This document shows positions 1-9,800 of a stretch of DNA of 64,000 nt, one piece after another. This stretch comes from Watersipora subatra (taxonomy: Eukaryota > Bryozoa > Gymnolaemata > Cheilostomatida > Watersiporidae), in contig NC_088716.1 in NCBI RefSeq assembly GCF_963576615.1, positions 58,001,681 through 58,065,680 on the forward strand. Direction: 5' to 3'. A program made the translations under genes and the position numbers. The notes under the pieces are model-generated. The model made no database searches. It was not told where the DNA came from and worked only from the letters and a program-made list of their open reading frames with translations. How positions within the stretch are numbered: position 1 is the first letter of the stretch; each line of letters starts with the position of its first letter.

Positions 1-144
1 GCCAAGGGGCCTAAATTTTACGGTTTTTATGCTAATCATAATTAATTAAAACTATAATATTCTTTGACGCTGATTTGTTTCAATTTCTGTTAAATTTTAT
101 CAGATGTTAATGCTACTTTGTTTTATAGCTAAATAATTTCTAAG

Positions 145-3100
145 ATGAGCTACAAACTTATCAGGACACTTTCTCATATGAGGCTGATAAAAACCAAACC
201 ATCATTACCTTTCATCTCATTTTGTAATGAGTGTTTTTCCAATGGACACAAGATGGCCTCCAGCAAGAGGGTTTCCAATTACAGCACAGACAGGTCTTCT
301 GATCTACCACCAGAGGACAGAGATAAAACTTTTAAAGGCAGTGTGAGTGTTATTTACTTCATTGCGGCGTCATCATTCATTGCTTTTCTTGCAAGATAAA
401 AATAATTATATAAAGCTGTTTCAGATAATGTTAATTTTAATAGAAACCTGATACATGTAGAGTTATCTGCTTCACAAATGTGTAAATATGCAATGCTTAA
501 ATCAAGCTTACTCAGTTTGCTGAAGTCTTTTGAATGAATTTTTGTGAAAACTTTTGAAACAAGTTTAGGTTTTTTGAAGGTGATTTCGGGTTTTTTACAT
601 GCACTCTTCTGGGGTACATCTAGAGAAGGATCTTTGGTTGGTAATGGTACGCAAGAGCATTTACTGAGGCTATACAATAGCGGGGCTATGTGGTTAAAGG
701 CCAAACGCCTATACCCTATAACCTATGTATCCCATACGCACACCCCATACGCATACCCCATGCGCATACCCCAGACGCATACTCCAGATGCATAGGGGAT
801 CCGAATGCACTCCATGGATTGAGATTGTTTATTAATATACATAATCTCTATAGAAATGTTACAGCAACATATTTACTTAGCTCTTGTACCACATATTCTG
901 TTTTATCTCAGTACGATTTTGGCAAGTTGAACCAGGCAAACATTGCTATTCTAGCGAGTCATTATCAAGAAGGCATGTATTGGTATTGACCATTGTTTGT
1001 AGACGACTGTTGATAATGAGTTTGTTACACTGTATCTATCTGTTGTCATATTTTATTAGGGAGAGGGAGGGAGAGGGAGGGAGAGGATAGAGAGTGGAAG
1101 AGTGACAAGGGGAGATATAAAACAGCTGTGGATTTGAGATTAACTAATTGGTTTTTACTTTACAGGTCATTTCTTGGAAATCTGTAACTGCTGCAGCTGT
1201 GTTTGGCATTGTGGGTGTTCTTTCCTTGAGAGAGCTACGGAAACTTAAAGATGCTAGTGAGTTATCTTCTCATGTATCTCTCGTACAGTAATTGACTAGG
1301 GTGGCAGGGTGGCTGAATTAAAACAGCTGCGACATGAGAATATTAACAGCTTTATACAAGGATAGCTTGTTCGTGCTTGAATAGATGTTAAAAGCAATTG
1401 TAGATTTTGGTCAATCGTCTGTACGATAGGCTGATGACATACATATTTTATTATTGATTATAATTATAGCCAATAATACAAGCTTCATCTATGAACACAA
1501 AAAATTGAAATTGCTACTTCATTACAATTTTATAGTAAAGTAGAGATTATTCATTTGCATTTTTTAATATTCATAATAAGTTTCATAGGAAGTAAACAAA
1601 CATTTACTTAACATTACATTTTGATGACTTAAGTTATTACAATAGCGATATTCCAATCATGGTTCGAAAAAGTCTTTGAGTTTTTTCAAAAAATTTAATT
1701 CGGATTTTTTGATAGTTTTGATTTTTTTGGCTTACTTTGCTCAAGCAGGTTACTGGTGTATTGTATTGCTAATCAGAATGCTGGTCACCTATCATTCAGT
1801 ATTCTTTACATGCTTTAATCTGATTTACATGGTTCAGTTTGACAGCCAAATTCTTATATTTCATGCATGCATCAGTCATATACAATTATAATGTGCAAAC
1901 TGCATGTAAGTTAGTGGAGTAGAGCTACTAGCGTAGAGTAGAGCTACTAGCGTAGAGTAGAGCTACTAGCGTGGAGTAGAGCTACTAGCGTGGAGTAGAG
2001 CTACTAGCGTGGAGTAGAGCTACTAGCGTGGAGTAGAGCTACTAGCGTGGAGTAGAGCTACTAGCGTGGAGTAGAGCTACTAGCGTGGAGTAGAGCTACT
2101 AGCGTGGAGTAGAGCTACTAGCGTGGAGTAGAGCTACTAGCGTGGAGTAGAGCTACCAGCGTGGAGTAGAGCTACTAGCGTGGAGTAGAGCTACTAGCGT
2201 GGAGTAGAGCTACTAGCGTGGAGTAGAGCTACTAGCGTGGAGTAGAGCTACTAGCGTGGAGTAGAGCTACTAGCGTGGAGTAGAGCTACTAGCGTGGAGT
2301 AGAGCTACTAGCGTGGAGTAGAGCTACTAGCGTGGAGTAGAGCTACTAGCGTGGAGTAGAGCTACTAGCGTGGAGTAGAGCTACTAGCGTGGAGTAGAGC
2401 TACTAGCGTGGAGTAGAGCTACTAGCGTGGAGTAGAGCTACTAGCGTGGAGTAGAGTTACTAGCGTGGAGTAGAGCTACTAGCGTGGAGTAGAGCTACTA
2501 GCGTGGAGTAGAGTTACTAGCGTGGAGTAGAGCTACTAGCGTGGAGTAGAGCTACTAGCGTAGAGTAGAGCTACTAGCGTGGAGTAGAGCTACTAGCATG
2601 GAGTAGAACTACTAGCGTAGAGTAGAGCTACTAGCGTGGAGTAGAGCTACTAGCGTGGAGTAGAGCTACTAGCGTGGAGTAGAGCTACTAGCGTGGAGTA
2701 GAGTTACTAGCGTGGAGTAGAGCTACTAGCGTGGAGTAGAGCTACTAGCGTAGAGTAGAGCTACTAGCGTGGAGTAGAGCTACTAGCATGGAGTAGAACT
2801 ACTAGCGTAGAGTAGAGCTACTAGCGTGGAGTAGAGCTACTAGCGTGTTACAAATTGAAAAAATAAATTCAAAGATTTAAATCATTTGATTTTTTATGTC
2901 AAGTTTTGGGTGAAATATTGCTCATACTGTTAGATAGCATGCTGTTGATTTAAATTCCTAAACAAGGCATGTAGAAAGAATAAGGTGAGTTGATAACTCT
3001 CCCAAAGCACGTTAGTAGTAAGGTTTGTTCTCATGGCATGTTTGGTATCACAAACAAAGTTTTTCGCTAGCCCAAAACAACCGATTATAACGCGTTGTCC

Positions 3101-6100
3101 ATAGTATCAACTTTTTAATTAGTTTAGACTCTAACTGCAGCCATTTTATTCCCATTCGTTGAAGGAACTTTGATCGGTAATGTGCGTGTATCGGCAATGT
3201 GTGTATATATCGGTACTGTATATGTATCTATACTGTATATGTATCAGCGATGTGTATGTCTGTAATGTACATGTATCACTAATGTATATGTATCTGGTTA
3301 CAGAGAAGCGCATGTTGCGATTGATTCTGGCTGCACTCATGTAGAGATTATGGTCTTAACAGTTCATATTCATGTTACAGAATTAGCTGAGAGCAGAGGG
3401 GTTGTCATAGGGAAAGCTGATCTCGGAGGAGACTGGACGTTAATGGACCACACTGGAACCAAGAGAAAAAACACAGACTTCCTAGGCCAGTGGCTGATTC
3501 TCTACTTTGGCTTCACCTTTTGTCCTGATGTTTGTCCAGAGCAGATGGAAAAGCTGGTTGAAGCTGTTGATAGGATCGGTGAGTGTCCCAGCGCTTCTGT
3601 AATTGACTTTCATGTTGTATACTTCAGCCATGATTTACACAAATAAATAAGGTTGTAGAATTGTCCTACCTTTCATTGCATTTCTCAGGCTCAATGATTA
3701 TACTCGCCCTTCCATATACTGTTTTGTCAAGTATGTTTGCCACACATTTTCTGGGGCCATAAAAGGCGACATACTTAGTTTCTAGCATTGTATCTAGCAG
3801 GTATTAATACCGAGTATTAAGTTGTTTACTGTGTTAACGGGATTGCAGATCAGGTGTTGTGTATAAATCTTTGAAACAATCGGTGTCAATCCAGGTTGCG
3901 ATATGTTAGACCTCAAGCTATTAGTGCCTAAACGCGTATTTTTAACTAGTGCGGAGTTTGAAGGTCAGGTGCCAGTTCCGAATCCATTGACTTTAGATTT
4001 GTCAGTGTTTCTTTGTTTTCATAGATGATGATAAAACCTTACCAAATGTTGTGCCCATATTTATAACCCTCGACCCCGAGCGGGACAGTCCTCTCCTACT
4101 CGCCCAGTACCTCTCAGGTAAGGGAGTTGTCTTCAACTTGCAACTTTATGAATGTCACTATTGTGTTATAATATCAACTTGGATAGACTTCTTTAACTTA
4201 GCTTCTGGCAAATTGTTACCAGATCACTGATTGGTTCTAGATGCCTACTTATATTATGTACATCTAGTTTCACACAATACTGAGAATAGTTTCATCCTTA
4301 ATCTGTAAAATTCACACGCGTGTTGACCAAACATCTAGAAGAAGGCACATCACATGTATTGACGTTATGACTACGAGAGAGGTGCTTGCTGGTGTCAGAG
4401 TATTGCAAGAAATCAAGCTTGCTACATGGCACAGACACCTTGATCTGTAAAATCACATGAACATTGACCAAGCATCTAGAGGTTGCTGCTAGGGTACGGC
4501 TGAAGCGTACTGCGTGCACAGATACCATGGGAATTGGTTCTTTAAACTGGCATATCTACTTCAATCGCTCGCTTCCTCATGGCTCACCACATTGAGCATC
4601 TTCCTGACAGTGATATTTTATAAGAGAAAGTTGAAAGAACCAGGTAATTCAGCATTACCATTATCAAATCCTTTCCAAAATATGCAATTGGGTGAGCTGG
4701 CTGTTGATTTTGCTGTAGAATTCTCAGAGAAGGTAATAGGTATGACCGGTACCAAGGAACAGATTGCACAGGCTGCCAAGGCCTATAGGATATACTATTC
4801 AGCTGGTCCCAAGGATGAGGACAACGACTACATAGTGAGTGTCACTGATCAGCTCAGCTATGGGTTAATACATGTTATGTCCTGAGTCCTCTACGTCGAT
4901 GTAACAAAAACTTACAATTTTTTCCCAGCCTGATCAAAATCTATACCTATATGCTTGAATGCTGCTTGTATTTGAACATTCACACGTATAGATGTAATAT
5001 TAAACAGCGGAATATCACTCTTCGGTTGAAGCCCAAGCAGCGTACAAGCTTGCAATGGTGACATTTGCCAGCTACTCATTAAGGATTGTAACATTATGCA
5101 CTTTAATACATATCATTGTGAAAGTGACTGCTTCATAACTTCCTGAGTTACTTTCTATTAATGTTAAATCTTGTGTGAAGAGTACATGTACGGTGGTGAA
5201 ATGAACTACATAAATGTGATACTTTCTTTAAGACACCTGCAATTAATTAACAATATGTAAACAAAAACATAGGAGAGAACCACACAATCATTTTCTTGGC
5301 TGGCTAGGGATGTTATCCAAAAGTATAGCAAAATGTAGTTTGTATATTAATTTTTTACTGGATTAGATAGCACTGTGATGAATGCCATGTACTGTACTCA
5401 ACAATATATGGATTGTCGGTGTAACAGGCTTACATTGAAAAGAGCCAACTTTCAAGTGAGATATTAGCCAATTCCCTAAATACATTCCTAATTCACTGCG
5501 GAAAGTGATGGGACGGCACTTCCTGCCTACTTTGTAGAAAGTGTCACTTTCTCCAGTTACTCATGTGTGAAATTCGGACTACCCTAAAATATTACTTATT
5601 ACTCTCAGGTGGACCACTCTATAATCATTACTTTCAGGTGGACCACTCTATAATCATTACTTTCAGGTGGACCACTCTATAATCATTACTTTCAGGTGGA
5701 CCACTCTATAATCATTACTTTCAGGTGGACCACTCTATAATCATTACTTTCAGGTGGATCACTCTATAATCATTACTTTCAGGTGGACCACTCTATAATC
5801 ATTACTTTCAGGTGGACCACTCTATAATCATTACTTTCAGGTGGACCACTCTATAATCATTACTTTCAGGTGAACCGCTCTATAATCATTACTTTCAGGT
5901 GGATCACTCTATAATCATTACTTTCAGGTGGACCACTCTATAATCATTACTTTCAGGTGGACCACTCTATAATCATTACTTTCAGGTGGACCACTCTATA
6001 ATCATTACTTTCAGGTGGACCACTCTATAATCATTACTTTCAGGTGGATCACTCTATAATCATTACTTTCAGGTGGACCACTCTATAATCATTACTTTCA

Positions 6101-6549
6101 GGTGGACCACTCTATAATCATTACTTTCAGGTGGACCACTCTATAATCATTACTTTCAGGTGAACCGCTCTATAATCATTACTTTCAGGTGGATCACTCT
6201 ATAATCATTACTTTCAGGTGGACCACTCTATAATCATTACTTTCAGGTGGACCACTCTATAATCATTACTTTCAGGTGGACCACTCTATAATCATTACTT
6301 TCAGGTGGACCACTCTATAATCATTACTTTCAGGTGGATCACTCTATAATCATTACTTTCAGGTGGATCACTCTATAATCATTACTTTCAGGTGGATCAC
6401 TCTATAATCATTACTTTCAGGTGGACCACTCTATAATCATGTACCTGATAAATCCAGATGGGGAGTTCTGTGAATACTTTGGTCAAGATAAAAAAGCATC
6501 TGAGATTTACCAAGGGAGCAGAAAGCACATGCTTGCATGGAAGAAATGA
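145..6549 (+). CDS. SCO1: SCO1/SCO2-family mitochondrial copper chaperone, six exons, complete
   Basis: Inner-membrane copper chaperone that delivers copper to the CuA site of cytochrome c oxidase subunit 2. Exons: 145-342, 1166-1256, 3381-3578, 4025-4117, 4719-4834, 6421-6549; all junctions are GT-AG and phases agree (0,1,1,1,0), giving about 274 residues, between human SCO2 and SCO1 in length. Residues 1-65 are a basic, Ser-rich mitochondrial presequence. Exon 2 starts with the family-typical ISWKS and carries the single membrane segment (around 70-85). The thioredoxin-like domain follows, with copper ligands in CPDVC (exon 3, after YFGFTF), LDPERD in exon 4, [10 protein letters not shown] closing exon 5, and the third ligand His in VDHSII at the start of exon 6. 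The C-terminus (HMLAWKK) is normal. The first ATG at 145 is chosen because the frame is open from there and the presequence is plausible. The odd point is the last intron, whose 3' end is a minisatellite made of copies of the acceptor itself. Confidence 0.95.
1059..1090. repeat. GA-rich simple repeat in SCO1 intron 1
   Basis: Short purine-only run of GAGAGGGAGG units about 75 bases before the exon 2 acceptor of SCO1. The rest of intron 1 (343-1165) holds only a small CATACGCAC-like repeat near 728-790 and otherwise no recognisable element. Confidence 0.7.
1914..2849. repeat. 19-bp minisatellite (about 49 copies) in SCO1 intron 2
   Basis: Head-to-tail array with unit GTGGAGTAGAGCTACTAGC. The first three units carry GTAGAG instead of GTGGAG, the middle is nearly uniform, and the distal part carries linked variants (GAGTTAC, GCATGG, AGAACTAC). 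A block of variants seen from about 2511 recurs from about 2701, a shift of 190 bases or ten units, so a ten-unit segment was duplicated. No open frame of note. The rest of intron 2 (1257-1913 and 2850-3380) shows only AT-rich sequence and, near 3190-3290, degenerate GTATATGTATC repeats. Confidence 0.95.
5609..6440 (+). repeat. 29-bp minisatellite containing SCO1's last 3' splice site and exon start
   Basis: Twenty-eight tandem units of exactly 29 bp (812 bp, no length change) run from 5609 to 6420; the 29th, partial unit is the true start of SCO1 exon 6 (6421-6440). Each unit reads ATTACTTTCAG, then GTGGACCACTCTATAATC, so each reproduces the intron acceptor and the codons for Val-Asp-His-Ser-Ile-Ile, including the copper-ligand His. 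Variants GGATCAC (units 6, 11, 16, 21, 26-28) and GAACCGC (units 10 and 20) recur with a ten-unit (290 bp) period. Use of an upstream unit would put a TAA stop in frame after 14 codons. The remaining part of intron 5 (4835-5608) shows no recognisable element. Confidence 0.95.
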
Positions 6550-6853
6550 TGGAGCTAGTCATTAGTTACATGTGTGGCTACATCCAGGATATCTGACAGA
6601 CGGAAATGGCTGTTTAAAGTTATTATTATTGTTGTGACCATGTTGACAAAACAAAGATTTTTTATAGTGTTCTATTTTCACCAAATAAAGAGAGCAGCAG
6701 ATTGCAGCAGTTTTATTTAAAGAAATTATTAGTGTGAAAAAGTAACAATCATTGATGTGCTACAAAAATAAAGAATCTGGTTATGTAGATCGAAAATTGG
6801 ATTTATGAGAATCTATAAAGAAAATTTAGAAATTAAATTTACAAAAAATGAGA
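6550..6853. other. Convergent 3' region between SCO1 and HLCS
   Basis: Only 304 bases separate the two stop codons. For SCO1 there are AATAAA signals at 6684-6689 and 6767-6772 on the plus strand. For HLCS an AATAAA lies on the minus strand at 6717-6712, about 140 bases past its stop. The 3' untranslated regions therefore probably overlap. No other gene is seen here. Confidence 0.6.
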
Positions 6854-9800
6854 TTAATAGGTTGATCTCTCTTTGACAGTGATCAGATTGTGTAAGATGT
6901 CAAAACTGTTACCATCTGGCTGTACACTAAACACGCTTCCATCATCACTCTGCAATCGTAGGAAGCCATGTTCATCCAATCCGATTATCATAGATTCCTC
7001 ACTGTTTTGCTCCGGGACATGTACCCTCACACCTGAGTGCATCCAGTGCTTGTAGTATTCATTCATGAACTCTGTTTTGTCTTTGTTTAGCAGATCTAAA
7101 ATGAAAATGAGCTTGTCATCAATTGTCGCTAACTTTCTGACCCTCAGTTTCAGTGTGGAGCTGCTGAACTAACAATGAACTCTCATCCACAATTATGCAA
7201 TAGATGTGTTATTTCCAAGGTGAAGTTGTCTACTCATTTTGTGTAGCCTTTGGCAGCCAGATAATAGTTGTTGATGTAAAGGTATTAGCTTCAACATTAA
7301 GGATACAGTCGACACAGCTATGGTTGGACACTTAGCTAGCTAGCTAGCCGAGTGTATGCTAAAGCTATTGCTAGCTTGCTAACCAGTCGAGTGTATGCTA
7401 CCGCTATTGCTAGCTTGCTAACCAGTCGAGTGTATGCTACCGCATTGCTAGCTTGCTAACCAGTCGAGTGTATGCTACCGCATTGCTAGCTTGCTAACCA
7501 GTCGAGTGTATGCTACCGCTATTGCTAGCTTGCTAACCAGTTGAGTGTATGTTACCGCTATTGCTAGCTTGCTAACCAGTCGAGTGTATGCTATTGCTAG
7601 CTTTATCAGAGAACTACTGGACAATGAACAGAGAATCTCCATACCTCAAAGGAACTGAAGGAAAAAACAAGCTTATAAAATGCCTTATCTCATCGATTCT
7701 TATCAAAATATAATCTACCTGCAGTCTACAAAGATGCAACCTTATTAAGCACATGTACTCTGGTCAATACATACACGCATCCACTCACCGATGAGATATT
7801 CCATGTGGTTACAGATTTGGCCAGCCAACCATTCCGCACTAACATCTGGAATTGTGCTTCCATTCTGCTCATTGTAATCATGTACAATATCATTTAAATT
7901 TTCTGTTGGCTTCAGATTCTTCACGTTCACCCCAACACCTACATTAGGCAATATGTAATGCAGGTAATTCACATTTTGGTGAGCAACAGCGGTACGTCAA
8001 AACCAAATTTCATATCAACAATTTGTAACTTTTGTTACAATTGGATTGGCTAAAGTAAAAGCAATTATGGCACGACGTCAATCTTAATACACAAGGTTAA
8101 CATTGTAATATGGATGTCAGGAGTGAGTCACATAGCAACTGCATGTCAACCTTGCAATCAAGAAATATACAGATTTGGTAGCTGTATCAGACTATGTATA
8201 GCTTTACCAATATGTTGGAGTAAATGCGCTGCCAGGTTTTTGATAGCTTACAGAGATATTCTAGTAAAACGGTGCTTTTGTATCAGACACACTCTGTTCA
8301 GGTTACCAACATACCTACTACCGCGATAAACTGGTTACGCCAAGTGCTGCATGAAACAATAATTCCTCCTATTTTCGTCTTTTTGTAGTAAATGTCATTT
8401 GGCCACTTGACAGAGACTTTGCACTCTTGGCTCTTCAGTGACTGTCCAATAGTAAACAAATACCATTTAAGAACTCACCATGTGAAACTGGTAAGGCAGA
8501 CTGTGACTCAGTAGAGATATTGTGCTAGTTGGTTGCTATTTACGAACACTGGTACTCTCGTGAAAGGAAAATGTGTGGAATACTGGGTGGCAAAAGGTAA
8601 CGTGTTCCTAGAAAGCTCGTCATTTATTATTTTAGAAAGGTAGATACATGGTGGGTCACGAATAAGGATAGCCACTGAATGAAATCAATTATTGAGCAAT
8701 CTTTGGTTATAAGCAAAGTTCAAAAACATTTAAAATCGTTGCGCAAATATCCAGTCCAAGGGTTAGAACACATTTTCCCAGACACTGATTGCATCAACAC
8801 TTATTTCTCATTTCATGAGACAGTCTTAGATAGAGATCTACCTGAACATAAGTTCATCTGTCTATTGATAATACACTACAAAAAATTATGGAAAAACCTA
8901 CGGCAGGGAGAAGTGTGGCAATTATTCTCGCTACAGCGACGGCGGGAATTGTCTGCAGAAGGGCAGGCGCTTGACCGAGGTTGCTGGTTGCAAGAAATGA
9001 TACCTGCATAGAGAGCGAGAGGGAGCCTGCGGGGCTTATCCAAGAGTTGGAACCTCTGCCTAAATCACATAAATATTTGGCACTAAACTTCATCACAAGT
9101 TTTACAAAACTGTTTTAAGTAAAAGTATATTTTGAAGTTAGCTTCTTAATGTGCATCAATCAACTAGTTCCAACCTTCACAAGAGAATAAGGCTGTGAAG
9201 GGCTTCACGGGTGAAGGGAGCTAGCAATACATGGTGCAATCAAAAATGAGGGGTAGACAACTCCAAATATGGCAATAACTTTAATTAGTATTTAATGAAT
9301 TTGGAACAGCCCCGCATTACTTACAAAAACCGTAGATTTTTGTAAATCTTGTCAAATGTGATGCTTAAATGGCTGTTTAAAAGTTAAGTCAAACATGAGA
9401 AGACAACTCAGGACAGCAATCAGCATTAGATTTCTACTTGTCATAAGCTCATTAGTCATTACTGCTATGATAGCTTAAGAACACAGCAGACACCCCTAAA
9501 ATGTGAATCTGTTCTAATAACATTTACGTTATGAAGATTTCATTTCGTGCGAACCGTAAAATACGTGTAAATAGCCTAATCCATTCGGAGATCTTCACAA
9601 ACTCACCCCTTTGGTCCTTTAGGAAGGAAAAATGAAAATTAACTTTTTAATTTAATGACTGTACAGTAAATGTAGTATGACTGGCTTCTATCCATAATTT
9701 CTTATTTTTCCTATCACTTTCATTTGGTTTAGGGTCCATGATTCCGGCAATTTTGTTCTAAGGATGACCGTATACATTCATTGTTAATTTGAATAAATTT

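Follow-up and report, generated by a model that had tools for sequence, protein, structure and literature searches.

How does a gene make a correct mRNA when its last coding intron ends in 29 nearly identical splice acceptors, and is such an arrangement a device for regulation or a tolerated accident? The question is raised by SCO1 of the bryozoan Watersipora subatra, which lies in a window of 64,000 nucleotides (C9:58001681-58065680, the whole stretch of DNA that was analysed; positions are those of the window, and a slash within a sequence marks a splice junction). The gene and its repeats are laid out as follows.

145..342, plus strand: SCO1 exon 1, coding part, beginning at ATG 145 like the deposited protein
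1166..1256, plus strand: SCO1 exon 2, from the spliced model
1914..2847, no strand assigned: minisatellite of 19 bp x 49.2, unit GTGGAGTAGAGCTACTAGC, wholly within SCO1 intron 2 and away from splice sites
3381..3578, plus strand: SCO1 exon 3, which carries the copper-site motif CPDVC
4025..4117, plus strand: SCO1 exon 4
4719..4834, plus strand: SCO1 exon 5, ending ...DYI, with donor GTGAGT at 4835, phase 0
5598..6440, plus strand: acceptor array (a mirage by its structure), 29 x ATTACTTTCAG/GTGGACCACTCTATAATC, without indels, with an apparent 10-unit higher-order duplication
6421..6549, plus strand: SCO1 exon 6, coding part (VDHSIIMYL...AWKK), beginning at the 29th acceptor, stop at 6547-6549
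6684..6689, plus strand: first AATAAA past the SCO1 stop codon, a second one being at 6767

Splicing to the 29th acceptor gives a six-exon, 263-residue SCO1 frame from ATG 178. This model is identical over all its residues (100% identity, 263/263) to the deposited W. subatra SCO1 homolog of 274 aa, whose start, ATG 145, is located 11 codons before that of the model. The frame is open over the six exons and the introns keep their GT and AG. Human SCO1 is the best solved match of the model (2gqk, E 1.1e-68, residues 95-263), its structures aligning across exon 6 as far as the C-terminus, and PF02630 matches exons 3 and 5. The two motifs that identify an SCO copper chaperone, CPDVC (CxxxC) and VDHS with the distal His, are both present, and we take the CPDVC cysteines and the VDH His to be the copper-binding residues. 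Among related entries, the SCO1 of Acipenser ruthenus has two copies of the SCO domain's first half, which may reflect a duplication in the gene model or in the assembly. Downstream of the W. subatra gene, a 39-base minisatellite of 6.7 copies occupies 7333-7593, near a minus-strand open frame at 6857-7168.

The array lies across the junction between the last coding intron and exon 6, each unit being composed of 11 intron bases, which end in CAG, and 18 exon bases, which start with GTG. A previous sequence-only reading had described 29 acceptor copies extending over 812 bases, exactly 28 units without indels, and TRF and a script agree on this. TRF reports a period of 29, 29.1 copies, 97% matches and 0% indels over 5598-6440; the script found 29 CAG/GTG sites, all spaced by exactly 29, with the first exon-side base at 5609 and the last at 6421 (812 = 28 x 29). 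That reading holds for gene, splice boundary, number of copies and register, and for the frames with small corrections; the start of the array, set at 5609, has to be moved to 5598. A 24-base probe with up to 3 mismatches matched 29 times in the window and not once in 100 shuffles.

The units belong to four types, A (19 copies), B (7), C (2) and D (1), arranged in the order D AAAA B AAA C, B AAAA B AAA C, B AAAA BBB A. This order suggests that a ten-unit block of 290 bases was in turn doubled once the array was in place. The 31-base seed of the array starts with ATTAC...CAG, closes with ...AATCAT and has AT on both sides. Judging from the similarity among the copies alone, the array is probably recent and its copy number has probably changed. 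As had been claimed, each unit covers the acceptor and the first codons of exon 6, but the copper-ligand His is not included in every copy: it is kept, together with GTGG, in 27/29, whereas the C-type units 10 and 20 read GTGAACCGC. The acceptor AG, on the other hand, is indeed kept in all units (29/29). We estimated 4-5 substitution events in the array from the four unit types; the probability that all of them miss the two AG positions of the 29-base unit is 0.75 with 4 events and 0.70 with 5. Since such conservation is expected without selection, it is no sign of function, and selection on the AG was rejected, the mutation events being too few.

What each acceptor would yield can be read from the frames. 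Early acceptors lead, in 26 of 28 cases, to a 235-residue product with a stop after 14 codons; this had been claimed for every one of them, but those of units 9 and 19 give a 231-residue product with a stop after 10 codons. All the early stops fall in the exon holding the true stop, from 5651 for unit 1 to 6434 for unit 28. The complete frame is reached from the 29th copy alone, and the remaining 28 are normally intronic. The earlier claim that the last of the 29 acceptors is needed agrees with the deposited W. subatra protein, perhaps itself a homology-guided gene prediction, which fits the use of this acceptor.

How could the 29th acceptor be chosen? An AG may be skipped when it lies less than 12-15 nt from the branch point, and in other cases a linear search takes the first AG (PMC1431707), a preference that is strong but has exceptions (PMC7317903). 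The motif ATTAC, a candidate branch site, occurs 30 times: for 28 copies the distance is 7 nt to the AG of the same unit and 36 nt to the following AG; the final copy in the array has no AG but that of its own unit, 7 nt away, and a further copy, shortly before the array begins, is located 14 nt before the first AG. The proposed geometry, with ATTAC 36 bases before the next AG, therefore holds for 28/30 and, because this spacing compares with 7 nt to the own AG, an AG can be served by the ATTAC of the previous unit. By the first-AG rule and by transcription order, the earlier acceptors should compete well, and no sequence feature making the last unit a better acceptor was found in the array. 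RNA structure hiding the early AGs was rejected as well: the stretch 6186-6480, which takes in the final eight or nine repeats and the beginning of exon 6, forms a fold that is less stable than the average of its shuffles (z = +1.19; 185/200 shuffles at least as stable). What does distinguish the acceptors is the length of the terminal exon to AATAAA, 264 nt from unit 29 versus 1076 nt from unit 1. Exon definition favours the short exon, and it is the most likely basis for the choice of the 29th acceptor.

We thus arrive at a reading to which we assign a probability of about 0.82: the SCO1 array would be a recent, tolerated mirage in which functional mRNA comes from the exon-proximal acceptor, probably through exon definition. 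A stretch of ~29 bases across the acceptor of the last coding intron would have been duplicated in tandem, and the array could have grown by unequal exchange or slippage, including one 290-base block duplication. Some use of early acceptors probably occurs, and it may be tolerated as lost output, perhaps aided by a second SCO gene.

Mirages were first described in lancelets. They are minisatellites of exon/intron boundaries, known in amphioxus from Adh and globin genes and from those of troponin C and PGBD5; regular splicing is reported to be undisturbed, the Adh3 and BflGb6 mirages vary in length, and Adh3 units of 10-72 bp form a range that includes the 29 bp of SCO1 (PMC3087553, PMC3902484). 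The units of BflGb6, BflGb9, Adh3, troponin C and PGBD5 span or overlap the boundary at either intron end, like that of SCO1. By its structure, the SCO1 array is such a mirage minisatellite, placed at an acceptor: the unit lies across a splice site (exon 6 being assigned by homology) and is present in 29 head-to-tail copies. The 'tolerated oddity' suggested by the sequence-only reading fits best, with a direct precedent in amphioxus. The differences are those of phylum (Bryozoa), of scale, 29 near-identical acceptors against the 6 and 3 units of 150-160 bp described for the two BflGb6 haplotypes (PMC3087553), and of evidence, the amphioxus mirages being supported by length polymorphism and RT-PCR and the SCO1 array by its sequence.

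Two other known systems share part of this architecture. NAGNAG tandem acceptors likewise place competing AGs at one intron end (PMC3250501). Their isoforms differ by three bases, whereas the SCO1 acceptors are 29 nt apart, shift the frame and have each a candidate branch site and pyrimidine tract of their own. For the potato RdRp gene, intron gain by AGGT tandem duplication has been described (PMC4974935); the SCO1 seed likewise contains AG/GT and is tandemly duplicated, but no new intron is proposed here, the copies lengthening an existing one. What is new is a bryozoan mirage with a 29-fold acceptor and signs of more in the genome, the kind itself being known; no report of a bryozoan mirage was found in the literature searched, from which subscription papers were mostly absent, and this is weak evidence of novelty.

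To place the SCO1 array in its genomic context, we counted the minisatellites with a period of 10-100 and no fewer than 5 copies in twenty stretches of 10 kb, taken at fixed positions along C1-C10. These 200 kb contain 17 of them, 10 without indels, which make up 16% of bases, and two stretches are nearly all one satellite. Splice boundaries were surveyed at 60 kinase-exon loci taken from the PF00069 matches (at least 142 in the genome), picked roughly down the list before the sequence was seen and passing over five seemingly intronless matches and part of those with stops; TRF was run on all 60 loci and the candidates were then read. Donor-side arrays, running through the donor or starting exactly at it, were found at 4/60 loci, and acceptor arrays at 0/60, SCO1 being the sole acceptor case.

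In the OSR1-like L032, a 45-base unit is repeated 7 times from the exact GT, which is kept in 7/7 copies, and includes no exon bases. The MAP3K2-like L069 has 2.7 copies of 111 bases across exon and intron, with GT kept in 3/3. The DCLK1-like L073 carries ATCAAG/GTACTT repeats, with GT in 7/8 CAAG copies, the gene's own included. The fourth array, in the MAPK-like L074 (G000:C3:66857950-66858800, minus strand), presumably NLK, consists of 32-base units that are 99% alike; the gene's own copy reads CAG/GT and 10 other copies in the fetched stretch read CAG/AT, which makes the additional donors look dead, provided that CAG is the end of the exon, as homology indicates. The L074 donor, GTTGGT, is weak, and each unit contains two further GTAG-type sites. 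In the best alignments of all four, homology to solved kinases stops at most about three residues from the first, exon-proximal donor. The L069 copies also repeat an HRDIKG-coding stretch in frame within the intron.

Arrays with the boundary outside them were not counted (L033, L036, L040, L046, L057, L062, L075 and L081; L030, L050, L054, L061, L063, L064 and L077; second arrays of L069 and L073), nor was that of L067, located inside a coding exon; runs of 2-3 base units in L034 and L045 were left out of the survey. At the first 56 loci, with two boundaries each, local minisatellite density predicts 1.03 boundary arrays against the 4 seen (Poisson 0.021), in a post hoc test on a small sample, with L032 borderline and absent from the test script's own array list. 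Boundary arrays are thus at or somewhat above chance and, because the test is post hoc and L032 borderline, the excess is modest at best. The SCO1 array does not seem to be a one-off in the W. subatra genome. A far wider claim would be that splice-site minisatellites are pervasive (4/60 plus SCO1; thousands genome-wide if the sample is representative), exceed background and are read correctly by a strict exon-proximal rule that overrides first-come or first-AG choice; we regard it as doubtful.

The alternative that survives best makes the array a splice-dependent dampener, in which frequent use of early acceptors would cut SCO1 output, either because the mRNA decays or because the 231/235-residue proteins are unproductive, with expression set by the number of copies. 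Indeed, 28 early acceptors have an intact AG and each truncates the frame. The sequence-only reading had invoked NMD, which we rejected as the main reading. Since the intron concerned is the last coding one, no known exon follows the one with the early stops, and the junction-dependent arm of NMD is missing: none of them lies upstream of a later junction in the known exons, assuming no 3′ UTR intron. A review states that last-exon termination evades junction-dependent NMD, and also that UPF1-dependent destabilisation is described in humans for 3′ UTRs of more than 800 nt (PMC9661723). Between the stop and AATAAA there are 1031 nt in the case of unit 1, within that range, but 248 nt in that of unit 28, the true stop being at 135 nt, so that a weak length-dependent effect remains for the upstream acceptors of the first units. 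Nothing points to conservation or selection, and unrelated genes have boundary arrays too. A regulatory role of the array is not supported, and we consider the dampener rather unlikely.

Could early acceptors be harmless since each one also forms a donor? In such a splicing ratchet, CAG/GTGGAC would act as an acceptor and then as a donor, so that early use would be re-spliced to the last unit through zero-length exons. AG does directly precede GT in every unit, and all routes would yield the same correct mRNA. As a donor, however, GTGGAC matches GTGAGT, found in 4/5 SCO1 donors, at 3/6 positions only, and GTGAAC, present in 2 units, at 4/6. The regenerated site ATA/GTGGAC is weaker still against the usual donor consensus. 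Ratchet splicing was rejected on account of this poor donor and is very improbable.

An equally slim chance is left to the idea that SCO1 is losing its function to a paralog, the array being simply unconstrained. A second, divergent SCO gene does exist on C1 (G000:C1:48333000-48352999), with the motifs CPDIC and VDH and with the last intron at the same position, DYI/VDH, as in the array-bearing SCO1. An array common to both genes was rejected, as the exon 6 acceptor of the paralog is single and ordinary (CAACCAG/GTTGAC). Four significant tblastn pieces relate the two genes at 38-61% identity; the paralog is therefore an old duplicate and not a fresh replacement. SCO1 itself retains CPDVC and its His in addition to the open frame and intact intron ends described above.

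Finally, an assembly artefact is scarcely credible: tandem repeats are known to cause assembly errors (PMC6868369), but the 843-base repeat should be sound because the assembly is built from PacBio HiFi reads at a stated ~39-fold coverage with a primary consensus QV of 63.2, and the stated numbers of reads and bases correspond to reads of ~6 kb on average, which greatly exceeds the length of the repeat (PMC12902671).

Read as a tolerated mirage, the SCO1 array offers a natural experiment on 3′ splice site choice, with 29 equally spaced acceptors of which scanning, transcription order and exon definition each predict a different unit. For annotation, it means that gene predictors may pick the wrong copies of an array. 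Furthermore, if boundary arrays are as common as the survey suggests, the same question could be asked over many genes, and for donors too, making the W. subatra genome a possible test bed for splice-site choice.
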